Shown piece by piece: positions 2,090 through 17,785 of a stretch of 28,769 bases of DNA. Position 1 is the first letter of the stretch; every line of letters starts with the position of its first letter. The stretch comes from a virus. The position numbers and the translations under genes are program-made. The DNA is taken from IMG/VR virus record IMGVR_UViG_3300034027_000002, positions 1 through 28,769 of that record; one strand, 5' to 3'. The notes beneath the pieces were generated by a model. The model was not told where the DNA came from. It saw only the letters and a program-made list of their open reading frames with translations, and did not search any database.

Positions 2090-2120
2090 GAGTGTTTTTA
2101 GTAAATTTTAGGTGATTAAT

Positions 2121-3887
2121 ATGAGTAAGTACGCAGCTAAAACCGGAAGAGTGCGCCGTTATGAGTCCGATGTCCAAAACAATGTTCCCATCGATCAGCG
2201 GCTTTTGCCAGTGTCATGCACGATTTACCTCTATAAAAAAGCGTTGCATGAGCTATTAGAATTTTGTTCTAAGTCTCTCCGGTTCGGTTCAGGGGTAAAA
2301 GTTCATTTCGGTAGCGATGACTTGACCCCTGAGAAGCTAACAGAAATTAAAGAGTGGTACTTCATGATCGATGAAGCCCACCCAGATTTTAATAAAATAT
2401 TCGCTTTGCCCACCTACTTGAGAACCCGGTATCTATCCCCTGCCGCCTTTAAAAATAGATTTGGGGACAACCCGTATTTAAAACATCGAATTATAACCGT
2501 TGCTGATTCGATGCAAGAAAACCAACCGGGCAAAGACTCAATCGAAGAATCATGGTACAGCTTCGAGGTTGCCTTGCAGCTTGGTTATGTTCCTATCGTT
2601 GACTTATCCCACCTAAGACCCGCTGGGACACCCTCAGGCTCAACCACAGCCGCTAAACAATTGATTGCTACTGGTCCGCTTGGAATGGGAGATGACCCCC
2701 GTAACCCAGAATCAGGGTCATTTGTGTCCATTTACGCTAGAATATTCGACTTTTTACGAAGTGGGGATATAGTTGCGCTGATGCAATTACTTGGGCAATT
2801 GAACCGAACACTATTACAAGGCAGAGAAAAAACGGGGATTATTTGCACCGGGATAGATTACGAGTCCCCGCACGTGGAAAGATATTTAAATTTCCCACTG
2901 ATGAAGCTGCTGGGAAGCCAGAAAAAAGCTATCAGAATCGATGAAGGTTTGTTAGAGTTTCCTGAACTAATGCAATTGATTTGTGCAAAAGTCAATAGTG
3001 AATCATTGTTTTTAGAGAAAAAATTACCTGGTGGTTTACTAAGTAATGTGTGTGGGGAAATTGCAATGTTACCCGAAGCAACATGCAACTTACAACACAC
3101 CAACGCCGGAATGATTGAAAAACCAGGGGATATCCCTCAAGCAATGGCTGAGGTTTCCTACGACTTGATTCAAAACTGGTTAACGTGGCGGGATAATGTT
3201 TCTCCCGATGTGGCAAACATTTATTTACCACTAGAGGATGATCGGCAAGTTGGTTTAGGTTGGATTGGTTGGGCTAATTTCATGGCTAACCAACAAGTTA
3301 CCTATTATGAGTTTGCCCACACCCTCAAAAACTTTTTAGATGAAGTAGAGCAAGGTTTTCCCAATATACGCGCCCCTAAAACCACAGCAGAGGAAATATG
3401 TATGAATTTGTATGTGGGGTACATCAGATGCAGCGAAATGGGAGAGGAATACGGTATTGATAGAATGTTCACAATTGCCCCTACTCAGTCACTATTTGCA
3501 ACTACCAAAGATATCAACGGGAATACATGCTCTCGCGGTATCGTTGCCCCATTCGCTAGACGTATAAGACGGTCTAGCGACAGTAAAAAATCACAATTCG
3601 TTTTCCACGGTAAAGAAATAGAAATTGCTTCTGAGGTGGGTAGTGATGTACATGAATTGTTACATGATCAATGGCAGCGTCTAATGAATTTAACAGGTAA
3701 AGCCCATACAATTACTTATGATTTATGGCATAATATCGACGTTAACTGGTTAACTTCATTTATTACTGAAATGAATTTAGTGACCACTTACTACAACTTT
3801 TCAAGTAGCTTGAATAATGATTATCTCGATAAGGGAAAAATTCAGCAACTTGATGTAAATTCAATGACTTGTGATTGTGCCCAATAG
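2121..3887 (+). CDS. nrdA: Class I ribonucleotide reductase large (alpha) subunit, compact divergent form
   Basis: It would reduce ribonucleotides to deoxyribonucleotides with the diiron partner encoded next. Visible RNR signatures, in order (588 residues from the ATG at 2121): HLRPAGTP then a TGPLG loop (164-188), the usual 'RPkG...GP' region; C242 in a predicted strand; N309-V-C311-G-E313, the active-site NxCxE motif with the thiyl cysteine; C322, the expected redox partner; R375-QVGLGWIGW, the usual RxIGLGxxG motif; APTQS (453-457), the phosphate-binding loop; Y557-Y558, the tyrosine dyad of class I radical transfer; and C584/C586 at the C-terminus for re-reduction. At 588 residues it is well below the usual 700-760 and lacks an N-terminal ATP-cone, so dATP feedback may be absent. 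The frame opens at a GTG at 2112, but AGGTG is better read as the ribosome binding site for the ATG at 2121. The tyrosine dyad and the neighbour argue against class II. Confidence 0.8.
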   Translation: MSKYAAKTGRVRRYESDVQNNVPIDQRLLPVSCTIYLYKKALHELLEFCSKSLRFGSGVKVHFGSDDLTPEKLTEIKEWYFMIDEAHPDFNKIFALPTYLRTRYLSPAAFKNRFGDNPYLKHRIITVADSMQENQPGKDSIEESWYSFEVALQLGYVPIVDLSHLRPAGTPSGSTTAAKQLIATGPLGMGDDPRNPESGSFVSIYARIFDFLRSGDIVALMQLLGQLNRTLLQGREKTGIICTGIDYESPHVERYLNFPLMKLLGSQKKAIRIDEGLLEFPELMQLICAKVNSESLFLEKKLPGGLLSNVCGEIAMLPEATCNLQHTNAGMIEKPGDIPQAMAEVSYDLIQNWLTWRDNVSPDVANIYLPLEDDRQVGLGWIGWANFMANQQVTYYEFAHTLKNFLDEVEQGFPNIRAPKTTAEEICMNLYVGYIRCSEMGEEYGIDRMFTIAPTQSLFATTKDINGNTCSRGIVAPFARRIRRSSDSKKSQFVFHGKEIEIASEVGSDVHELLHDQWQRLMNLTGKAHTITYDLWHNIDVNWLTSFITEMNLVTTYYNFSSSLNNDYLDKGKIQQLDVNSMTCDCAQ

Positions 3888-6377: not shown

Positions 6378-7452
6378 TATCACCGACATTTTCACTTAAT
6401 CCTATTGTCCCAAATAACTGCAACTCACCAACACAGATATGATCTATGTTGGTGTTTTGTTGATAAAAATGAAAATAATAAGTATCTCTAGGCTCGTTGA
6501 ATTGTCCCAAGCCACCTAAATAAAATTCCGTCCACCCATTGTTTAAGTTTCCAGCGAACAGATGATTGTAACCACCATCATAAACATTGAAGTTGGTTGC
6601 CCCAGCAAACCCCTCAGCCCACGAAAAAATTCTGAGCCGTTGGATAGCATATGCCATTCTGATATTTAAACCTTGAGGACTTGTGGAGAAATTTATTTTA
6701 ACGCCCATTTCCCCAAACGGAGAACGGTTTACAACCATGCCACTATAAGGATCATTATTTTTTAGAAAATCTGTGTTAAGCTGACGGAAATTTTTAGAAG
6801 AATTGAAATAAGTATACTGGTGTACCGCTGTTGCATTGTAAGGTAATTCAATTTCAGTTACACGCCGATAAATGGCGTAATCATCTTGGACTTGTATCAA
6901 AGTTTCATCAGTTACCCCGGAAGATATCGGTATTAAATCATTAAGTTGTAAATAACCATAACCTATCGGAACCCGCGCACCTTGTTGAATAACTTGGGCG
7001 GCTCGATCAATAATATTGTTTTCCCGGTTGGCGGGGTCACTGCTTTTTTTCTGCTGGGGGCTTAATACCTCAGCAATCCCCCCAGCTATCAATGATGCAC
7101 CCATCAACCCAACCCCAGCCCCCACACCTGGGATAAACAAAGCAACCCCTACCAACGCAACCCCTAATAATCCTCTTAATATAGGGCTTCCGCTTTCTCC
7201 CTCAATGATTGGGGAAAATATTATTTGGTCTTCAGCTAGTTCTAATAACTCATCAGCGGTTGCCAACTCACGCAAGTTTTCCCCGGTTACTACTGAGTAT
7301 CTGTTACCTAATTCCCCACTTGTGTTTAAATAGTCGAAAAATCCGGGCTTTTGAAATCCAATAGCCCGGATTGCTTCGGCGGGGCTTGAAACGTCTAAGT
7401 CCCAAGTTTCCCCGAATAACTCCCCCAATTCAGCTTGAAGTATAACTTTCAT
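6367..7452 (-). CDS. Lambda I-like tail tip assembly protein with a C-terminal extension
   Basis: 361 residues. Residues 1-85 look like the beta-grasp domain of the lambda tail assembly protein I family. They are followed by a glycine-rich hydrophobic stretch (about 92-130, LLGVALVGVALFIPGVGAG...) and the conserved ARVPIGYGYLQLN segment (about 158-170), the 'G..VPv.YG' signature of this family. In lambda, I helps assemble the tail-tip complex. Residues about 190-361 are an aromatic, beta-rich extension not found in lambda I, possibly a carbohydrate- or partner-binding domain. Its K-like partner is also on this strand but is separated by the helicase gene. Its start lies inside the preceding ribbon-helix-helix gene (23-base overlap), so the two share a transcript. 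No terminator is seen after it. Confidence 0.72.
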   Translation of the reverse strand: MKVILQAELGELFGETWDLDVSSPAEAIRAIGFQKPGFFDYLNTSGELGNRYSVVTGENLRELATADELLELAEDQIIFSPIIEGESGSPILRGLLGVALVGVALFIPGVGAGVGLMGASLIAGGIAEVLSPQQKKSSDPANRENNIIDRAAQVIQQGARVPIGYGYLQLNDLIPISSGVTDETLIQVQDDYAIYRRVTEIELPYNATAVHQYTYFNSSKNFRQLNTDFLKNNDPYSGMVVNRSPFGEMGVKINFSTSPQGLNIRMAYAIQRLRIFSWAEGFAGATNFNVYDGGYNHLFAGNLNNGWTEFYLGGLGQFNEPRDTYYFHFYQQNTNIDHICVGELQLFGTIGLSENVGDIRA

Positions 7453-7681
7453 GTTTTTTCGTTTTATGAGACAGCTTAGTTAATTGCTCTATTCCTATAT
7501 TTTCAATCAACCCTAGTAGAAAATCGAATTTATCCAAGTTGTCTAAATACCTCTTTACTACCTCTGTCTTAGTTATTTGGTGTTTTACCGCATACTCATC
7601 TAACTTTACCGCGTGCGACGGCGCTATCTGAACCGTTAACCACTTCTTATCGGAGTTTAGTTGTTGCTTCGTCGTTGCCAT
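7430..7681 (-). CDS. Ribbon-helix-helix (Arc/CopG-type) DNA-binding regulator
   Basis: 83 residues. The pattern K-WLTVQIAPSHAVKLDEYA (residues 12-31), then KHQITKTEVVKRYLDNLDKF (33-52), is a strand followed by two helices, as in the MetJ/Arc/CopG fold. Such dimers insert a beta-ribbon into the major groove and bind tandem sites about one helical turn apart. The C-terminal 30 residues are a charged tail. Its upstream region has a perfect minus-strand -10 (TATAAT), the palindrome CACTAATTTAGTG and paired TTGGTATA elements shared with the divergent helicase promoter, suggesting autoregulation. It is the only clear DNA-binding regulator in the window and a good candidate for reading the dispersed TTGGTA sites. 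It overlaps the downstream tail gene. Confidence 0.72.
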   Translation of the reverse strand: MATTKQQLNSDKKWLTVQIAPSHAVKLDEYAVKHQITKTEVVKRYLDNLDKFDFLLGLIENIGIEQLTKLSHKTKKHESYTSS

Positions 7682-10846: not shown

Positions 10847-12334
10847 TTAGGTAAATCGATAATAACTTTCAGTGCGTGCCCATATGTTAGGCTTTTTCCT
10901 CGATGTGTCTGTCGGTACTACACTATAAGCTAACATCAAACTTATAGCAGCGTCCCCATGTCGGGGCATCATATCAGCGCCCGTAAACTCCATATTAGTT
11001 GGCACTTTGGGAACACCTTGGATTAGTTGAACCGTTAAATGATCATCGATAATATCTTCATCATTGGGTAGTGTTAGTGTCTTAAGCCCTAATGCCGCTT
11101 TGTACCTGGGGAAATGGGACAAGTAGTATTCTGCCGTCAACTTAACTTGGTTAATTCGATGCGTGCCGAAATCTAGAGCCATCTCCTCAGCCAAAAAAGA
11201 GCCGTTGCCCGTAGCATCAAAAGCGGCTTTTTTGAGCCGTTTGAATTTTCCCAAGATAAACCGGGTTATTTGGGCTTGGCAGTGGAATGGCGTATTTCTC
11301 AATTCCACAATGAGAGGGACAGAACGAACTTTGTCAATATCTTCTATGAGAATGGACAAAACCGTTAAATCATGTGATCGCCCAAAATCTAACCCCGCAT
11401 ATGTTTTGTAATTAGTGATGATGAATTTATCAATATAAGGGGCAACGGTATCATTAAGCCAGTCGTTAACTATGCCTAATTGTTCCCCGCGTTGTTTATC
11501 GATAAAGTTTTGGGAACAACTAAACCTCAATACCCCACCTGCAATAGTTGCTGCTGATTCTACAACATGCCTATTAAAAAACTGCCCTGAACCGCTCGAA
11601 GGTTGACAGTATAATTCTTCCGCTGCATGTTCCCCATAATCCGCTACTAAATCCTTAAGCCATTGGTCTTCTTTGTCTTGTGACCACAATTCACCGCCAA
11701 CCTCACAAATACGCTTATACAGCCCCTCAGACAGCGCTAAATCAATAGGGTATTCATGCAACACAAAATTACTTTTACCTTGCTTAATGGCTTTTACAAT
11801 GCTATTAAATGGGTGTGCCTCTCCGTTGTGGGTGCTAATAATTCTTAGTTTACCGCCCCACATCAACAAAGCCATAGCCGCTTTCATCAGCGCGGGTAAA
11901 TTTTGTTGGTGGGCGGCTTCATCAATACACACTACCCCTTGCATACCCCTCATGTTGCTAGGGTTAGAGGAAAGGGCGTAAATTTTGCAACCACCTATAA
12001 AACTTATAGAGTACGCCTTAATCGCATCATCTTCGCTTACCCACATATCATCTTCTGGCTTCCAATCATCCTGACGGTAGCCGTGAACCGCCCTTGCCCA
12101 ATCTGAGCAAGTATCTATAAATTCCTTGGCTAGGTCTTCACGAGTCGATATGTAAAGATAATCAGTGCCTCCCTCTCGCTTAATTTGGGAAGCTATTAAC
12201 ACTGCGTCTAATGCCTCTGCCCATGTTAAACCTATGCGGCGACTCTTCACCGCCACTTTAACTTTGCTATTGTCCCACAGCCAACGACATTGATATGGGA
12301 AACAAATGTCCGGTTTTAACTCAAGTTCACTCAC
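10847..12334 (-). CDS. terL: Terminase large subunit (Mu gp28-like type)
   Basis: 495 residues; the packaging motor ATPase and DNA-cutting nuclease. The ATPase domain has a variant Walker A, K30-SRRIGLTW (30-38), and Walker B GVVCIDEA (133-140, D138/E139), with a coupling motif ISTHNG (166-171). The RNase H-like nuclease domain shows AGLDFG (D316), AAFDATGNG (D373) and HGDAAISL (D461), the three metal-binding aspartates. The 'YQxxWLxDxSxxKxxxKSRRIGLTWA' opening resembles FluMu gp28-type large terminases. Its start overlaps the small subunit stop. The portal, which normally follows, is not here; an M15 peptidase and tail-tip gene follow instead. Confidence 0.88.
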   Translation of the reverse strand: MSELELKPDICFPYQCRWLWDNSKVKVAVKSRRIGLTWAEALDAVLIASQIKREGGTDYLYISTREDLAKEFIDTCSDWARAVHGYRQDDWKPEDDMWVSEDDAIKAYSISFIGGCKIYALSSNPSNMRGMQGVVCIDEAAHQQNLPALMKAAMALLMWGGKLRIISTHNGEAHPFNSIVKAIKQGKSNFVLHEYPIDLALSEGLYKRICEVGGELWSQDKEDQWLKDLVADYGEHAAEELYCQPSSGSGQFFNRHVVESAATIAGGVLRFSCSQNFIDKQRGEQLGIVNDWLNDTVAPYIDKFIITNYKTYAGLDFGRSHDLTVLSILIEDIDKVRSVPLIVELRNTPFHCQAQITRFILGKFKRLKKAAFDATGNGSFLAEEMALDFGTHRINQVKLTAEYYLSHFPRYKAALGLKTLTLPNDEDIIDDHLTVQLIQGVPKVPTNMEFTGADMMPRHGDAAISLMLAYSVVPTDTSRKKPNIWARTESYYRFT

Positions 12335-12750
12335 TGGCTGGGGGGCTTACCTAAAATAGCTATTTTGATGTCCTCAACGTTTTTCTTGGTATACCCTTTG
12401 ATTTGGGTAGTTTTGGAGTTGTCGCGGTTTTTCTTATCGGTGTCTAGCGTTAACGACAAAACCATATTGATAGCCGTTAATTGTTCGCGATCGCTCAATT
12501 CTCCGTTTCCCAAGAAAGAAACCAATTCCTTAACCGCTATTTTGCTGGATGCTACCAGCCGATAATAAGCTGATAAATGGTTATCTTCCACTATTTCCGC
12601 TACCAACTGCTGAAAAAGAGGATCGTCTTTATAACGCCTCAACTGTTGATAATTTAGCTGGTACAGTTCCATCAACTCACGGTAACTCATACCATCAGCA
12701 ATAGAATTAGCAATCCTCAGCTTAAACTCAAATTCAATCGTATTTTCCAT
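12331..12750 (-). CDS. terS: Terminase small subunit (probable)
   Basis: 139 residues, helical and charged. Residues about 15-45 (IADGMSYRELMELYQLNYQQLRRYK) form a predicted helix-turn-helix as used by small terminases to recognise the packaging site. The central helices (about 60-105) could form the oligomerisation core. Identification rests on size, the N-terminal helix-turn-helix and its four-base overlap with the large terminase gene downstream; the sequence itself is not diagnostic. It is the first gene of the minus-strand packaging/lysin/K operon and lies next to the putative origin region, so the packaging site could be nearby. Operator site D is about 30 bases upstream. Confidence 0.65.
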   Translation of the reverse strand: MENTIEFEFKLRIANSIADGMSYRELMELYQLNYQQLRRYKDDPLFQQLVAEIVEDNHLSAYYRLVASSKIAVKELVSFLGNGELSDREQLTAINMVLSLTLDTDKKNRDNSKTTQIKGYTKKNVEDIKIAILGKPPSQ

Positions 12751-12833: not shown

Positions 12834-12920
12834 TAACAAAAATGACTCATTTATTTTATACAATGTAACAACTAAATTACTAGGGTAGTGGAAACACTTA
12901 GAGGGGTGGAGCGGGAGCGG

Positions 12921-13260
12921 TGGGAAAATGGTGAAAAAGTGGTGAAAAGTGGTGAAAATTTAAAATTTTTCACTTTCTTTCACTTCAATTTTCACCATCG
13001 ATAAACGTAAGCTGGGAAAGGGTTTCGGGGGATTTAGTGAAAAAGTGAAATCCAACCCCCTAAGTTTATATACAAATAGTAGTTATTTTATATATGTATA
13101 TAATATGTACAGTATGAAAAAGAGCAGTAAAAAAATAGTTTACATGCAACGATTTTCACTAAATTTCACTAAAATCCCCGAAACCCTTTCCCAGAGCCAC
13201 TTTAGGTCTGGTGAAATTTTAGTGAAAGTTAGTGAGTTTTTCACCAACTTTCACTAAAAG
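12921..13260. other. Putative replication origin: mirrored GTGAAA repeats
   Basis: A gene-free region with fourteen exact copies of GTGAAA or its complement TTTCAC in about 330 bp, arranged as three mirrored groups. Group 1 has GTGAAA at 12931, 12942, 12952 facing TTTCAC at 12968, 12978, 12990. Group 2 has 13037, 13045 facing 13154, 13164. Group 3 has 13211, 13222 facing 13239, 13249. Spacing within groups is 8-12 bp, near one helical turn. The middle group brackets an AT-rich core (about 13066-13145). A G-rich stretch (12901-12923) flanks the left side. Iterated sites, an AT-rich core and a primase-helicase gene 170 bp downstream fit an origin bound by a phage initiator. A packaging site for the adjacent terminase is an alternative. 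I saw no canonical DnaA box. Confidence 0.55.
13012..13194. repeat. 31-bp inverted repeat flanking an AT-rich core
   Basis: The left arm (13012-13042) and the complement of the right arm (13164-13194) match at 29 of 31 positions; the first 19 are identical, starting CTGGGAAAGGGTTTCGGGG. The arms are separated by 121 bp containing a run such as TATATATGTATATAAT. Each arm ends in one GTGAAA repeat. It is probably the central dyad of the origin. Confidence 0.8.
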
Positions 13261-13367: not shown

Positions 13368-13398
13368 TATACCAATTTTTCCACTAAACCGTTAGTAT
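13368..13398 (+). promoter_or_regulatory. Primase-helicase promoter with operator site E
   Basis: TATACCAATT (13368-13377), the complement of AATTGGTATA, overlaps where a -35 would lie for TAGTAT (13393-13398), about 32 bases before the ATG at 13431. The promoter match is weak; the TTGGTATA element is exact. Confidence 0.4.
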
Positions 13399-13430: not shown

Positions 13431-15992
13431 ATGAAAGTTATGACGGATGTAGTTATAAACCCCAGACTCAATTTAGTTTCCCAGAATGAATTACTAAGCA
13501 GTGGCTATGCGGAAGAAAGCATTGTAAAACTTCCTCATTACACTGGGACGGCTAAGGAATTAAGCAACATATTAAATTATGATGTGCCATGCGAGGGTTT
13601 AGCTTTCGTCTACCTTAATATGGACGGAACCCCGATGAAACAGGCTAACGGTAAGCCTTTTGTACGTGTGAAGCTATTTAGAAACCCTGACGACGTTGCC
13701 CATTACGAAGAAACCACAGGGCGGCGCAACGGTAAATATAGCGCCCCTACTAACGGCGGCTGCCGCTTCTATTTTTCTCCGTTGCTTCAGACAAGTTGGG
13801 AAAATATACCTAGCCAAGTTAATAAACCAATATACTTTGTTGAAGGTGAGAAGAAAGCCGACGTTATAGCGCAAGAGGGATTTGTCCCAATCGGGTTAGG
13901 CGGTGTTACTTCTTGGAAAACCAAAGCAGATAATGAGGATTCAGCCCCTATAGCTGATTTTGGTCTAATTGACTGGAAGTATCGCCAAGTATATTTATGC
14001 CCCGACAGCGACGTTACCGACCCCGATAAACCGATGATCGGGCACGCCATGAAAAACTTAGCGGTTCATTTGGAATCACTAGGAGCGAAAGTCAATATAA
14101 TAGTTCTCCCAAATAACTTAGACGGCTCTAAAATGGGGGCGGATGATTTTATCAAACAGTTCGGGCGTGCTAAGTTCGCCACCTTTGCCCGTTTCTCACG
14201 TAAAGCGCTTAAAAACATTGGTAAAAGTAACAAAAATCCTATCTGGCAGTTAGATTTGACTGAGCCGGATAACCAGCGCAAAGCAGAAATAGTATCTTGG
14301 TTGTTGTCTAACGATTACGCCGTCAGACCGGGCAATGGTTTTTACCGTTTTGATCATTCCCATTGGACACCCCTATATGAGAAGGAAACAATAAGATTTT
14401 TACAACAAGCTTATGATAGTCAGCACTGGAGACTCAACAGCGTAGGCGCGTTGAAATTTGCTGAGGATGTTATAAGTTCATTGCTACTGGTTCCAGAGGG
14501 GGAATGGAACAAAGGTTTTAACCTACTGTTTAGCAACGGCACATACAACCCGATGCTTAAGCAGTTCACCCCTAGTTTTGATCGGACTACTTACGGAACT
14601 ATTCAACCTTTATCTTTCCCATATACGACCATACAAAACACACCTAAGCGCTTTTTACAGTTTCTGAACGAAGCTACCGGGGGTGATAACGCAACCATAG
14701 AGCTATTACAAGCGATTCTACGCTATGTATGGATTCCGAAAGATAGAACTAAGGTTTTCCCCATTCAATCTGCCTTTGACTTTTACGGTGGTAAAGGAAC
14801 CGGGAAAAGTACTTTTATTGAGGTCATCATGAAAGGATTGGGAGAAAACTCATACGGATCAGCAGATCCGGCAGTGTTTTCCACCCCTGAAAAGTTATCA
14901 GCGTTACTAGATAAGAGAGCCGCTATTTCTACCGATTGCGCGGGTCACTTGGCTAACGTAGGCACGTTTAACGCTGTTGTGAGTAATGAACCAGTACAAG
15001 TTAGAACGTTGTACCAGCAACCTGTGTTAACTCGTTTGGGGATTGTGGTGATTAGGGCATATAACAAAATAATCAGTGTTTCATCTTCTGGGACACAAGG
15101 ATTAGATCGCCGCATATTGGCAATTGAATTCAACAAACAACCTAAGGAAGTTGACACCCAATTACTACAAAAACTAACCAAAGAATTACCAGATATTTTT
15201 TGGTGGTGTTTCTCCATCAGCGACGAAGAAATGGTTAGACGGATTGAATCCAGAAACGATTCGGAATTAGCCGCAAAAGCCAGCATAGAAAGATTTGTAG
15301 ACAATAACCCCGTATTCCAATTTCTTAGCGATTTCTACACCGATGAAGGGGTAGATAAGATATTAACCAAGGAAATTTACGGGGATTTTGTTGAATGGTG
15401 TCGCCAGCAAAACATGTGTGTTTTGAAGCAAAGTACATTCTTCACCTCGCTTATGAATTACGGATGTAGCTACGTTAAAAAAGCCGATGGAGAGTTTAAA
15501 ACTCAAGCTAGGTATAAGTTTGTGACTATCCCAGCAATGAAAAACTTTGATCTTAAAGCTCATCTCAGACTCGGAAAAGCAGCGCCACAACCAATACAGC
15601 AACCCAGCGCGATCGCTGACGAATCTACTAACTCGGAAACTGTACAACTTTCCCCAGAAGAACAAAAGCTATTTTCCGACACCCTTAAAGCTGGTTTTAT
15701 TCCCGCCGCTCATCCAATGGGAGAATACAGCATGAAACGTAGTAATGGCAAGGAAGATAAAGAGATGTTTTTCTCCAGTTTCAACGACATGAGAATGGAA
15801 ATAGACCACCGATTAGAGCAACAATCACCAGCGGGTATTGAGAAAATAAAACAACAGGTATTACAAGAAATGCAACAACTAGCCGACGCTGGGGATTTGG
15901 GGGCACAACTCTTCATGAACGACATCAACGACGGTTCAGAAGAACTTCTAGAAAATGATCCGCTGATCCTTACCAAACTCGGTTTGATGTGA
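13431..15992 (+). CDS. TOPRIM-SF3 primase-helicase (DUF3854/D5-like)
   Basis: 853 residues. The N-terminal region contains a TOPRIM-like domain of the DUF3854 type: KPIYFVEGEKKADVIA (132-147, catalytic Glu138/Glu140), GLGGVTSW (155-162) and the acidic VYLCPDSD (187-194) plus GADDF (236-240). The C-terminal half is an SF3/D5-like helicase with Walker A GGKGTGKST (453-461), then a KRAAISTDC strand (495-503) and NEPVQVRTLY. Plasmid and phage proteins with this layout both prime and unwind at an origin. The tail after about 700 is low in recognisable motifs and glutamine/glutamate-rich. No Shine-Dalgarno sequence is obvious; a second ATG lies nine bases in. It is immediately downstream of the putative origin and upstream of the polymerase gene, making it the likely initiator. 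No zinc-binding primase domain is seen. Confidence 0.8.
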   Translation: MKVMTDVVINPRLNLVSQNELLSSGYAEESIVKLPHYTGTAKELSNILNYDVPCEGLAFVYLNMDGTPMKQANGKPFVRVKLFRNPDDVAHYEETTGRRNGKYSAPTNGGCRFYFSPLLQTSWENIPSQVNKPIYFVEGEKKADVIAQEGFVPIGLGGVTSWKTKADNEDSAPIADFGLIDWKYRQVYLCPDSDVTDPDKPMIGHAMKNLAVHLESLGAKVNIIVLPNNLDGSKMGADDFIKQFGRAKFATFARFSRKALKNIGKSNKNPIWQLDLTEPDNQRKAEIVSWLLSNDYAVRPGNGFYRFDHSHWTPLYEKETIRFLQQAYDSQHWRLNSVGALKFAEDVISSLLLVPEGEWNKGFNLLFSNGTYNPMLKQFTPSFDRTTYGTIQPLSFPYTTIQNTPKRFLQFLNEATGGDNATIELLQAILRYVWIPKDRTKVFPIQSAFDFYGGKGTGKSTFIEVIMKGLGENSYGSADPAVFSTPEKLSALLDKRAAISTDCAGHLANVGTFNAVVSNEPVQVRTLYQQPVLTRLGIVVIRAYNKIISVSSSGTQGLDRRILAIEFNKQPKEVDTQLLQKLTKELPDIFWWCFSISDEEMVRRIESRNDSELAAKASIERFVDNNPVFQFLSDFYTDEGVDKILTKEIYGDFVEWCRQQNMCVLKQSTFFTSLMNYGCSYVKKADGEFKTQARYKFVTIPAMKNFDLKAHLRLGKAAPQPIQQPSAIADESTNSETVQLSPEEQKLFSDTLKAGFIPAAHPMGEYSMKRSNGKEDKEMFFSSFNDMRMEIDHRLEQQSPAGIEKIKQQVLQEMQQLADAGDLGAQLFMNDINDGSEELLENDPLILTKLGLM

Positions 15993-16024: not shown

Positions 16025-17785
16025 ATGAAATACATAGTTGATTCTGAAAGTTTAGGGGAAAGTTTAGCAGAGTTCCGGGGCGATAATCCAAGAGTAATAG
16101 CGGTGGACACCGAAACCACCGGATTATCGCCCCACTTTAACAAAGTGAGGCTGGTACAAATAGCTTGGGATTCTAACAAAATCCGCAAAAGTTTTGTTTT
16201 TGACTTGTTCAAAATAGGTGATTATACCCCGCTCAAAGAAATATTAGAGGGGAAAGTAATTAAGCTATTCTACAACGCAAAATTCGACATAAATATGCTG
16301 AGGGGTGCGGGAATATCAGTTACCAAACCCGTCAAAGATTTAATGTTGTATTTTGGCGTGCTGACTAATGGTGAAGTACAAAGACCCAATTTGGCGATCG
16401 CTTACAACATGGTAATAGACCCAGATCAGCCAATGGAAACCAAGACTAAGAAAAAGAACCAGCAGTCAGACTGGGCTAAGTGGGACTTAGACCAAGAACA
16501 ACTAGAGTACGCTGCTCATGATGCTGATATTTTATTAGATATGTTTCCCATACTCCGGGCAGCAGTTGATCAAGCCGAATTAACGCCAATAGTGGAAAAA
16601 ATAGAACACCCGGCTATGTGGGCGGCGGCTGATATGGAGTTTAACGGTGTCCCAGTAGATCAGGAAGTATTTTCCATTTTGAAAGCTGAGGTTGAACCAC
16701 AGGTTACAGCGGCTAAGGCTAAAGTTGAAGCTATATTTGCAGAGGTGGGAATCGATAAAATAAACCTCAACAGCTACAAACAAGTTATCAAAGCACTAGC
16801 CGCCGTTGGTATTGAAGTTACAAGCACCGCTGAAAACGCACTTAAAGAAATTGATCACCCAATCATAGACGATTTGTTGGCGTATAAATCAGCTACTAAG
16901 TTGATGCAATTCGTTAACAAACTACCAACACATGTTGACCCAGTAACGGGGAGAATTCATTGTAGTTTTAATATGTTAGGGACGGTAACAGGGCGCGTTA
17001 GCTGTCTTTCTCCCAATTTGCAACAAATACCACGTAATCCGTTTCTACGCACCTTTATAAAAGCTAATAAAGGTTATAAAATAGTTGTTGCGGATTACTC
17101 ACAAATTGAATTAGTTTTAGCAGCGGAAATAAGTCAAGATCCAACGATGGTAAAGGCTTATAACGAAGGCGCTGATATTCATAGAATCACCGCCTCACTT
17201 CTGTTAAACAAGCCACCGTCAGAAATAACTAAGCAAGAAAGACAACTTGCAAAAGCTGTAAACTTCGGTTTAGTTTATGGGATGGGAGCGGCTAAGTTGG
17301 TGTTATACAGTAAGAATACTTACGGTGTAAAAATGACGTTAGAGGAAGCCCAAGAATACCGTAGTAAGTTTTTCCAAACGTATCCAGGTTTAATGCAATG
17401 GCATCAACGATCAAGCCACGAGATAAAAGCTTACCGACCCAAATTCGTTAAAACACTATCAGGGAGAAAAAGATTATTTTCCCATGATAAATTCGCCCAT
17501 AACGCAATAAGATTTACAAGCTACGTCAACACTCAAGACCAAGGAACCGGGGGAGACATAACAAAAAGAGCATTAGCAAAATGTAGATCTGTCTTTATTG
17601 GTCATGATGTTAACCTAATATTACAGGTTCATGATGAAATTTGTTTAGAAGTTCGTGAAGATTTAGCAGAATGGGCGGCTACGACTCTGGAGAAATGTAT
17701 GGTAGAGGCTGGGAAAGAATTTGTAAAAACTGTACCTGTTATGGTAGAAGTTTCTATTGCTGATTCATGGGGCGATGCAAAATGA
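16025..17785 (+). CDS. polA: Family A DNA polymerase with 3'-5' exonuclease
   Basis: 586 residues; the replicative phage polymerase. The exonuclease domain has AVDTETTG (D28, E30), LFYNAKFDINML (D88) and EYAAHDADI (Y162, D166), a complete DEDDy set, so proofreading is expected. The polymerase domain has GRIHCSFNMLGTVTGRVS (309-326), motif A VVADYSQIELVLAAE (354-368, D357), motif B RQLAKAVNFGLVYG (406-419) and motif C LQVHDEICLEV (533-543, D537). There is no 5'-3' nuclease domain, typical of phage enzymes. Motif B has the phenylalanine of Pol I rather than the tyrosine of T7. It begins 32 bp after the primase-helicase and overlaps the next gene by ATGA. Confidence 0.95.
   Translation: MKYIVDSESLGESLAEFRGDNPRVIAVDTETTGLSPHFNKVRLVQIAWDSNKIRKSFVFDLFKIGDYTPLKEILEGKVIKLFYNAKFDINMLRGAGISVTKPVKDLMLYFGVLTNGEVQRPNLAIAYNMVIDPDQPMETKTKKKNQQSDWAKWDLDQEQLEYAAHDADILLDMFPILRAAVDQAELTPIVEKIEHPAMWAAADMEFNGVPVDQEVFSILKAEVEPQVTAAKAKVEAIFAEVGIDKINLNSYKQVIKALAAVGIEVTSTAENALKEIDHPIIDDLLAYKSATKLMQFVNKLPTHVDPVTGRIHCSFNMLGTVTGRVSCLSPNLQQIPRNPFLRTFIKANKGYKIVVADYSQIELVLAAEISQDPTMVKAYNEGADIHRITASLLLNKPPSEITKQERQLAKAVNFGLVYGMGAAKLVLYSKNTYGVKMTLEEAQEYRSKFFQTYPGLMQWHQRSSHEIKAYRPKFVKTLSGRKRLFSHDKFAHNAIRFTSYVNTQDQGTGGDITKRALAKCRSVFIGHDVNLILQVHDEICLEVREDLAEWAATTLEKCMVEAGKEFVKTVPVMVEVSIADSWGDAK

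Follow-up and report, generated by a model that had tools for sequence, protein, structure and literature searches.

The stretch of DNA analyzed here, referred to as the window, comprises 28,769 bases and is a virus record from IMG/VR, a single contig that is possibly a fragment. A leftward block carrying the genes for the large and putative small terminase subunits is separated by ~680 bp of non-coding DNA from a rightward block encoding a primase-helicase and a DNA polymerase (Table 1). The non-coding DNA contains short repeats in both orientations, arranged around an AT-rich core and overlapping a long inverted repeat.

Table 1. Positions of genes and repeat features in the window
Feature	Position	Strand	Remarks
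Large terminase, TerL	10847..12334	-	phrog_2; terminases of Mu-like phages are closest
Putative small terminase, TerS	12331..12750	-	Position beside TerL; HTH_28 match weak, below cut-off; divergent neighbor
Iteron group 1	12928..12998	.	GTGAAA at 12931, 12942, 12952 (+) facing TTTCAC at 12968, 12978, 12990 (-); palindromic
31-bp inverted repeat, left arm	13012..13042	+	CTGGGAAAGGGTTTCGGGGGATTTAGTGAAA; terminates in the iteron at 13037
Iteron group 2, left iterons	13037..13050	+	GTGAAA at 13037, 13045
AT-rich core	13065..13150	.	80% A+T; lies between the group 2 arms
Iteron group 2, right iterons	13154..13169	-	TTTCAC at 13154, 13164
31-bp inverted repeat, right arm	13164..13194	-	
Iteron group 3	13211..13259	.	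GTGAAA at 13211, 13222 (+) facing TTTCAC at 13239, 13249 (-)
853-aa probable P4-family primase-helicase and initiator	13431..15992	+	
DNA polymerase I family protein	16025..17785	+	Replication module; gene after the primase-helicase

Architecture of the repeat region

There are 14 exact copies of GTGAAA or its complement TTTCAC within positions 12931-13254. Under a first-order Markov model of this segment, 0.38 copies are expected on average, and the maximum reached in 5000 simulations was 4. The remaining 28.4 kb of the window contains 13 copies in total, with no more than 4 in any 340 bp; no mixed-orientation hexamer of any kind exceeds 5 copies in any other 340-bp stretch. The repeat unit is (T)RGTGAAA, and copies within each arm are spaced 8-12 bp apart, i.e., by about one helical turn. 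A sequence-only reading of this DNA had described head-to-head groups of 3+3, 2+2, and 2+2 copies with this spacing, and the count, grouping, and spacing all hold. The same reading called the groups nested, but they lie side by side, with none inside another. Group 3 includes a 19-bp near-perfect palindrome, and a degenerate copy, GTGAGT at 13232, turns this group from 2+2 into 3+2. The orientation pattern alone is not significant in a runs test (P 0.21); the evidence for symmetry is the palindromes together with a layout that is conserved in relatives, rather than the orientation pattern by itself. No second iteron cluster was found in the 28.8-kb contig, which may itself be incomplete. There is nothing special about DnaA boxes in the array region, with one TTTTCCACT at 13377 and many elsewhere in the window. 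A 70-aa ORF within the array region (13045-13257) has no family match in a profile search.

The inverted repeat and the AT-rich core that it surrounds are also as the sequence-only reading had them. The two arms are 121 bp apart and identical at 29 of 31 positions, with 22 being the best value in 60 shuffles. The core is in the top 0.03% of same-size windows for A+T content and is probably an unwinding element. Each of the groups can fold separately into a hairpin, with a z-score of −10.6 over the whole 340 nt. In its outer portion (CTGGGAAAGGGTTTCGGGG, 13012-13029 / 13177-13194), the inverted repeat is GC-rich and free of iterons. Phage P4 has nothing equivalent to this segment, to which a second protein may bind.

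The combination in one genome of a Mu-like TerL, a DNA polymerase I of its own, and a P4-type primase indicates a mosaic origin. TerL scores ~42% to enterobacterial phages and 39% to Microcystis phage Mae-JY22, and one TerL relative (L005) sits in a short contig that is otherwise unrelated to the window. Peptide-pattern searches of viral contigs found no close relatives of the primase, the DNA polymerase, or the DUF5895 protein; for the primase, species genomes were searched in this way as well, with no close relative found. The host is probably a cyanobacterium, an assignment made only via the nearest relatives of the primase sequence. Elsewhere in the window, a 591-aa protein (2112-3887) has a weak match, in its middle only, to phrog_367 (ribonucleotide reductase large subunit), which suggests a divergent or partial reductase.

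The primase-helicase and the initiators of P4 and SaPIs

The 853-aa protein consists of an N-terminal DUF3854 domain (residues 123-246), a DUF5906/primase_Cterm SF3 helicase (365-670), and a Pox_D5 winged helix (PF03288; 624-677), and the DUF3854, DUF5906, and Pox_D5 matches are all above Pfam cut-offs. TIGR01613, the model for P4-family primases, aligns over its full length (E 9.5e-29), although its 100.2 bits fall short of the curated 108.7. When the C-terminal 84 residues are searched in isolation, they still match Pox_D5 above cut-off, at 2.3e-6, followed by weak matches to the Cdc6_C and RFX winged helices. A blastp alignment to P4 alpha (24% identity, E 1e-12) begins in the helicase region and continues into the origin-binding domain of P4. 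Among solved structures, the closest in sequence is a SaPI5-type primase, 7ola, with a profile match of 3e-13 that likewise extends from the helicase into the C-terminal domain; the record is titled DNA primase, and we take it to be SaPI5 Rep. In P4 alpha itself, Pox_D5 matches at 670-768, which coincides with the span of the solved structure 1ka8 (residues 671-770), known as the origin-binding domain of P4. Because of the alignments to P4 alpha and 7ola, and because Pox_D5 is a domain of the 1ka8 kind, the 853-aa protein is, at the level of sequence, a probable initiator of the P4/SaPI kind and a distant relative of P4 alpha and SaPI5 Rep. A single-sequence AlphaFold model of residues 601-720 had a pLDDT of 46 and was set aside.

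P4 alpha is an initiator helicase that binds short iterons via its C-terminal domain. The annotated P4 record, NC_001609, from which the facts on P4 are taken, lists “ori type 1 repeats” with the sequence GGTGAACA(G), spaced 9-11 bp apart and present in both orientations. At ori1, three type 1 repeats point one way, one faces them, and there are two more; each half of crr has two repeats facing another two, plus one more. There is thus a precedent for mixed-orientation iterons at an origin. The sequence-only reading had considered the layout unusual on the grounds that ordinary iteron origins use direct repeats. This is correct only for classical plasmid Rep systems, given that P4 ori1 and crr are mixed and that mirrored arrays recur in the family.

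The window shares several properties with P4: a C-terminal Pox_D5 domain corresponding to the 1ka8-kind origin-binding domain of alpha; short iterons in both orientations, one about every helical turn; and a resemblance between group 1 (TGGTGAAAAAGTGGTGAAAAGTGGTGAAAA) and P4 GGTGAACAGTGGTGAACAGACGGTGAACAG. There are also clear differences. The P4 iteron sequence GGTGAACAG differs from the window unit, the core GTGAA alone being common to both. The two cis-acting regions of P4, ori1 and crr, are ~4.7 kb apart, whereas no second region was found in the window. P4 units lack strict palindromes, whereas the window has three facing groups that together span less than 330 bp and immediately precede the gene on its 5' side. 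Lastly, the N-terminal part of the window protein is DUF3854, in contrast to the Zn-ribbon/Toprim_3 arrangement of alpha.

Similar comparisons can be made with two other systems. SaPI Rep and Cch2 are described as recognizing short iterons next to their gene through the C-terminal domain, apparently in the form of two hexamers (PMC7581432). The window resembles the SaPIs in pairing a probable initiator helicase, whose C-terminal domain would bind iterons, with an origin-like region beside its gene, and in having iteron arrays that flank an AT-rich region close to the initiator gene. However, the SaPI origin is directly downstream of rep, whereas the window array is upstream of the primase-helicase gene. 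In cyanobacteria, autonomous replication has been demonstrated with the DUF3854 proteins CyRepA1 (Slr7037) and CyRepA2 (PMC9978351, PMC10079941). They share the N-terminal DUF3854 domain with the window protein, but their C-terminal domain is described as DEXDc, whereas the window helicase is DUF5906/SF3 (P4 type). No mention of iterons was found in these two CyRepA papers.

Mirrored arrays at related primase genes

Primase homologs in 386 cyanobacterial genomes reach up to 37% identity over residues 16-685, and a plasmid search using one cyanobacterial homolog as the query returned 67 records. The densest mixed-orientation hexamer array is near the P4-type primase gene in 24 of 46 loci, compared with 9.3 expected by area. 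The same method finds no near array in some relatives, e.g., L060, L071, L076, and phages L009, L016, and L019. All 13 plasmids examined (L094-L106) have a mixed-orientation array inside the DUF3854 primase gene, 295-740 bp before the stop codon. Tested against the remainder of its own plasmid, the array reaches p <= 0.05 in 11 of 13 cases, with the other two at 0.051 and 0.071; the combined value is 7e-14, uncorrected for relatedness. Head-to-head arrays within the gene are also seen in many chromosomal elements with homologous primases. The usual plan in these relatives is 3-6 sites pointing the same way, followed after 67-148 bp by sites that face them; the intervening gap is often AT-enriched. 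The units of the plasmid arrays are mostly GTGACG, with GTGATG and TGCTGA also found; one chromosomal locus uses GTGACA.

Among the DUF3854/P4 primases of cyanobacterial plasmids (e.g., those of pMIC7113.07, pP742404, and pOSCIL6304.02), the proteins that were tested have the domain order of the window protein. The position of the array is not: it is in the 3' coding region of the plasmid primase gene, whereas the window array is non-coding and 5' of the gene. In the alignment, the in-gene arrays fall past the origin-binding domain, in the sequence coding for the variable C-terminal region of the primase. The GC-skew minimum of the plasmids does not coincide with the array.

What of other viruses? 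Among viral contigs with a DUF3854 primase, array windows make up 2.2% of those near the primase ORF and 0.2% of those elsewhere, a tenfold difference, with a near array present in only 7 of 42 viral loci. One of these contigs, from a different phage, has a three-group facing array of AGTGCA upstream of the DUF3854 primase gene (L122:5999-6250), as in the window; in three others (L139, L152, and L153) the array is directly 3' of the gene. The sequence-only reading had held that a lack of repeats conserved at this location in related phages would count against its proposal. The searches turned up no close relative among phages; distantly related phages do have arrays, with different unit sequences. 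A blind scan of 2.9 million viral contigs for a mirrored GTGAAA array identified a single contig, in which the array directly follows an ORF for an AAA_25 helicase-like protein. The facing array at L155:632-739, in an unrelated phage contig, is made of GTGTGAAA and comes right after an AAA_25 helicase-like ORF that may end in a winged helix. Different initiators either converge on the mirrored-array plan or share it.

Function of the region

What does the array do? It most likely marks the replication origin of the phage (12928-13260), where the adjacent primase-helicase would initiate at the AT-rich core as two facing hexamers. From the array, the core, the Pox_D5 protein family, and the recurrence of mirrored arrays, we infer binding, melting, the start site, and bidirectionality. 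Specifically, the C-terminal winged-helix domain of the primase-helicase would bind the GTGAAA iterons, whose spacing of about one helical turn would line up the subunits along the same face of the double helix. The opposite orientations of the iterons would lead to the assembly of two facing hexamers. These would melt the core and encircle the single strands, one helicase per strand, and would then move away from each other; primase activity and the phage DNA polymerase would come behind them. The sequence-only reading had proposed an origin-like region beside the primase-helicase gene, and the homology to P4 alpha and SaPI5 Rep, the similarity to P4 repeats, and the arrays at relatives argue for this proposal at the sequence level. 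The GC-skew check suggested at the same time gives a mixed answer: the cumulative minimum, at 12880, is beside the array and fits an origin, yet it coincides with the switch in gene direction and is confounded by it.

There are other ways to explain an array in this position. Iteron arrays frequently double as autoregulatory operators, and here the array lies between divergent genes, so a transcription regulator bound to it could control both the terminase and the primase operons. The candidate for such a regulator, an 83-aa ORF (7430-7681) with a weak match to phrog_876 (a phage repressor family), is encoded 5 kb away. Moreover, one promoter-like site was found where 3.3 are expected, and in the plasmid relatives the arrays are found within the primase gene, toward the 3' end of its coding sequence, rather than upstream of it. 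An operator in place of an origin is hence improbable, while an operator role in addition to the origin is possible. Only ~180 bp separate the array from the start of the putative terS gene, and the sequence-only reading had suggested that packaging recognition might share the region. However, a pac site bound by the small terminase, whether shared with the origin or replacing it, is very unlikely because plasmids with no annotated terminase carry a similar array at homologous primases; evidence of a terminus is also absent from this contig.

Phased arrays of short repeats are typical of partition sites, and other plasmid arrays may be of that kind. For the window, a centromere-like site bound by a ribbon-helix-helix or ParB-like protein has only a slight probability: neither ParA nor ParM was recognized among the window proteins searched, and the partition genes of the plasmids are elsewhere, whereas the arrays studied are within the primase gene. 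The 31-bp arms, given their near-identity and the distance between them, could instead be the terminal repeats of a miniature inverted-repeat transposon (13012-13194) inserted in the intergenic space. Such an element is again most unlikely, since a search of 2.9 million viral contigs with the arm GGGAAAGGGTTTCGGGG gave no more than three matches, all unrelated and due to chance, a clear target duplication is absent, and the flanking groups 1 and 3 are built from the same iteron.

A replication origin remains the preferred explanation, and parts of it have been described before: iteron origins of the P4/SaPI type, and iterons in both orientations, are already known. The strict palindromy, the compact plan of three groups, the additional GC-rich segment of the 31-bp arms, and the 5' non-coding position go beyond what is known. 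Family-wide mirrored arrays, mostly within the coding sequence of the initiator, are a feature for which no description was found in the open-access literature searched. Tentatively, DUF3854/P4-type primases could define a broad and as yet undescribed class of origins in cyanobacterial plasmids, integrated elements, and phages. Origins of this class would have mirror-image arrays, usually in the 3' coding region of the initiator gene, with units (GTGAAA, GTGACG, GTGATG, GTGCTGA, and others) that change together with the C-terminal winged helix; in this phage, the arrays would have shifted to a place 5' of the gene, in the form of strict palindromes that possibly also extrude as hairpins. Many cyanobacterial plasmids have a DUF3854 primase and no mapped origin. 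If mirrored arrays are origins, they provide a sequence-level rule for locating replicon starts, a direct test of two-hexamer loading, and defined cassettes for cyanobacterial vectors.

Three Nostoc plasmids have a second array, of 9-11 copies of GTTTCA in mixed orientation (L101 27201, L102 34701, and L103 17681). These arrays are away from the DUF3854 primase gene that was tested and are perhaps partition sites or operators.
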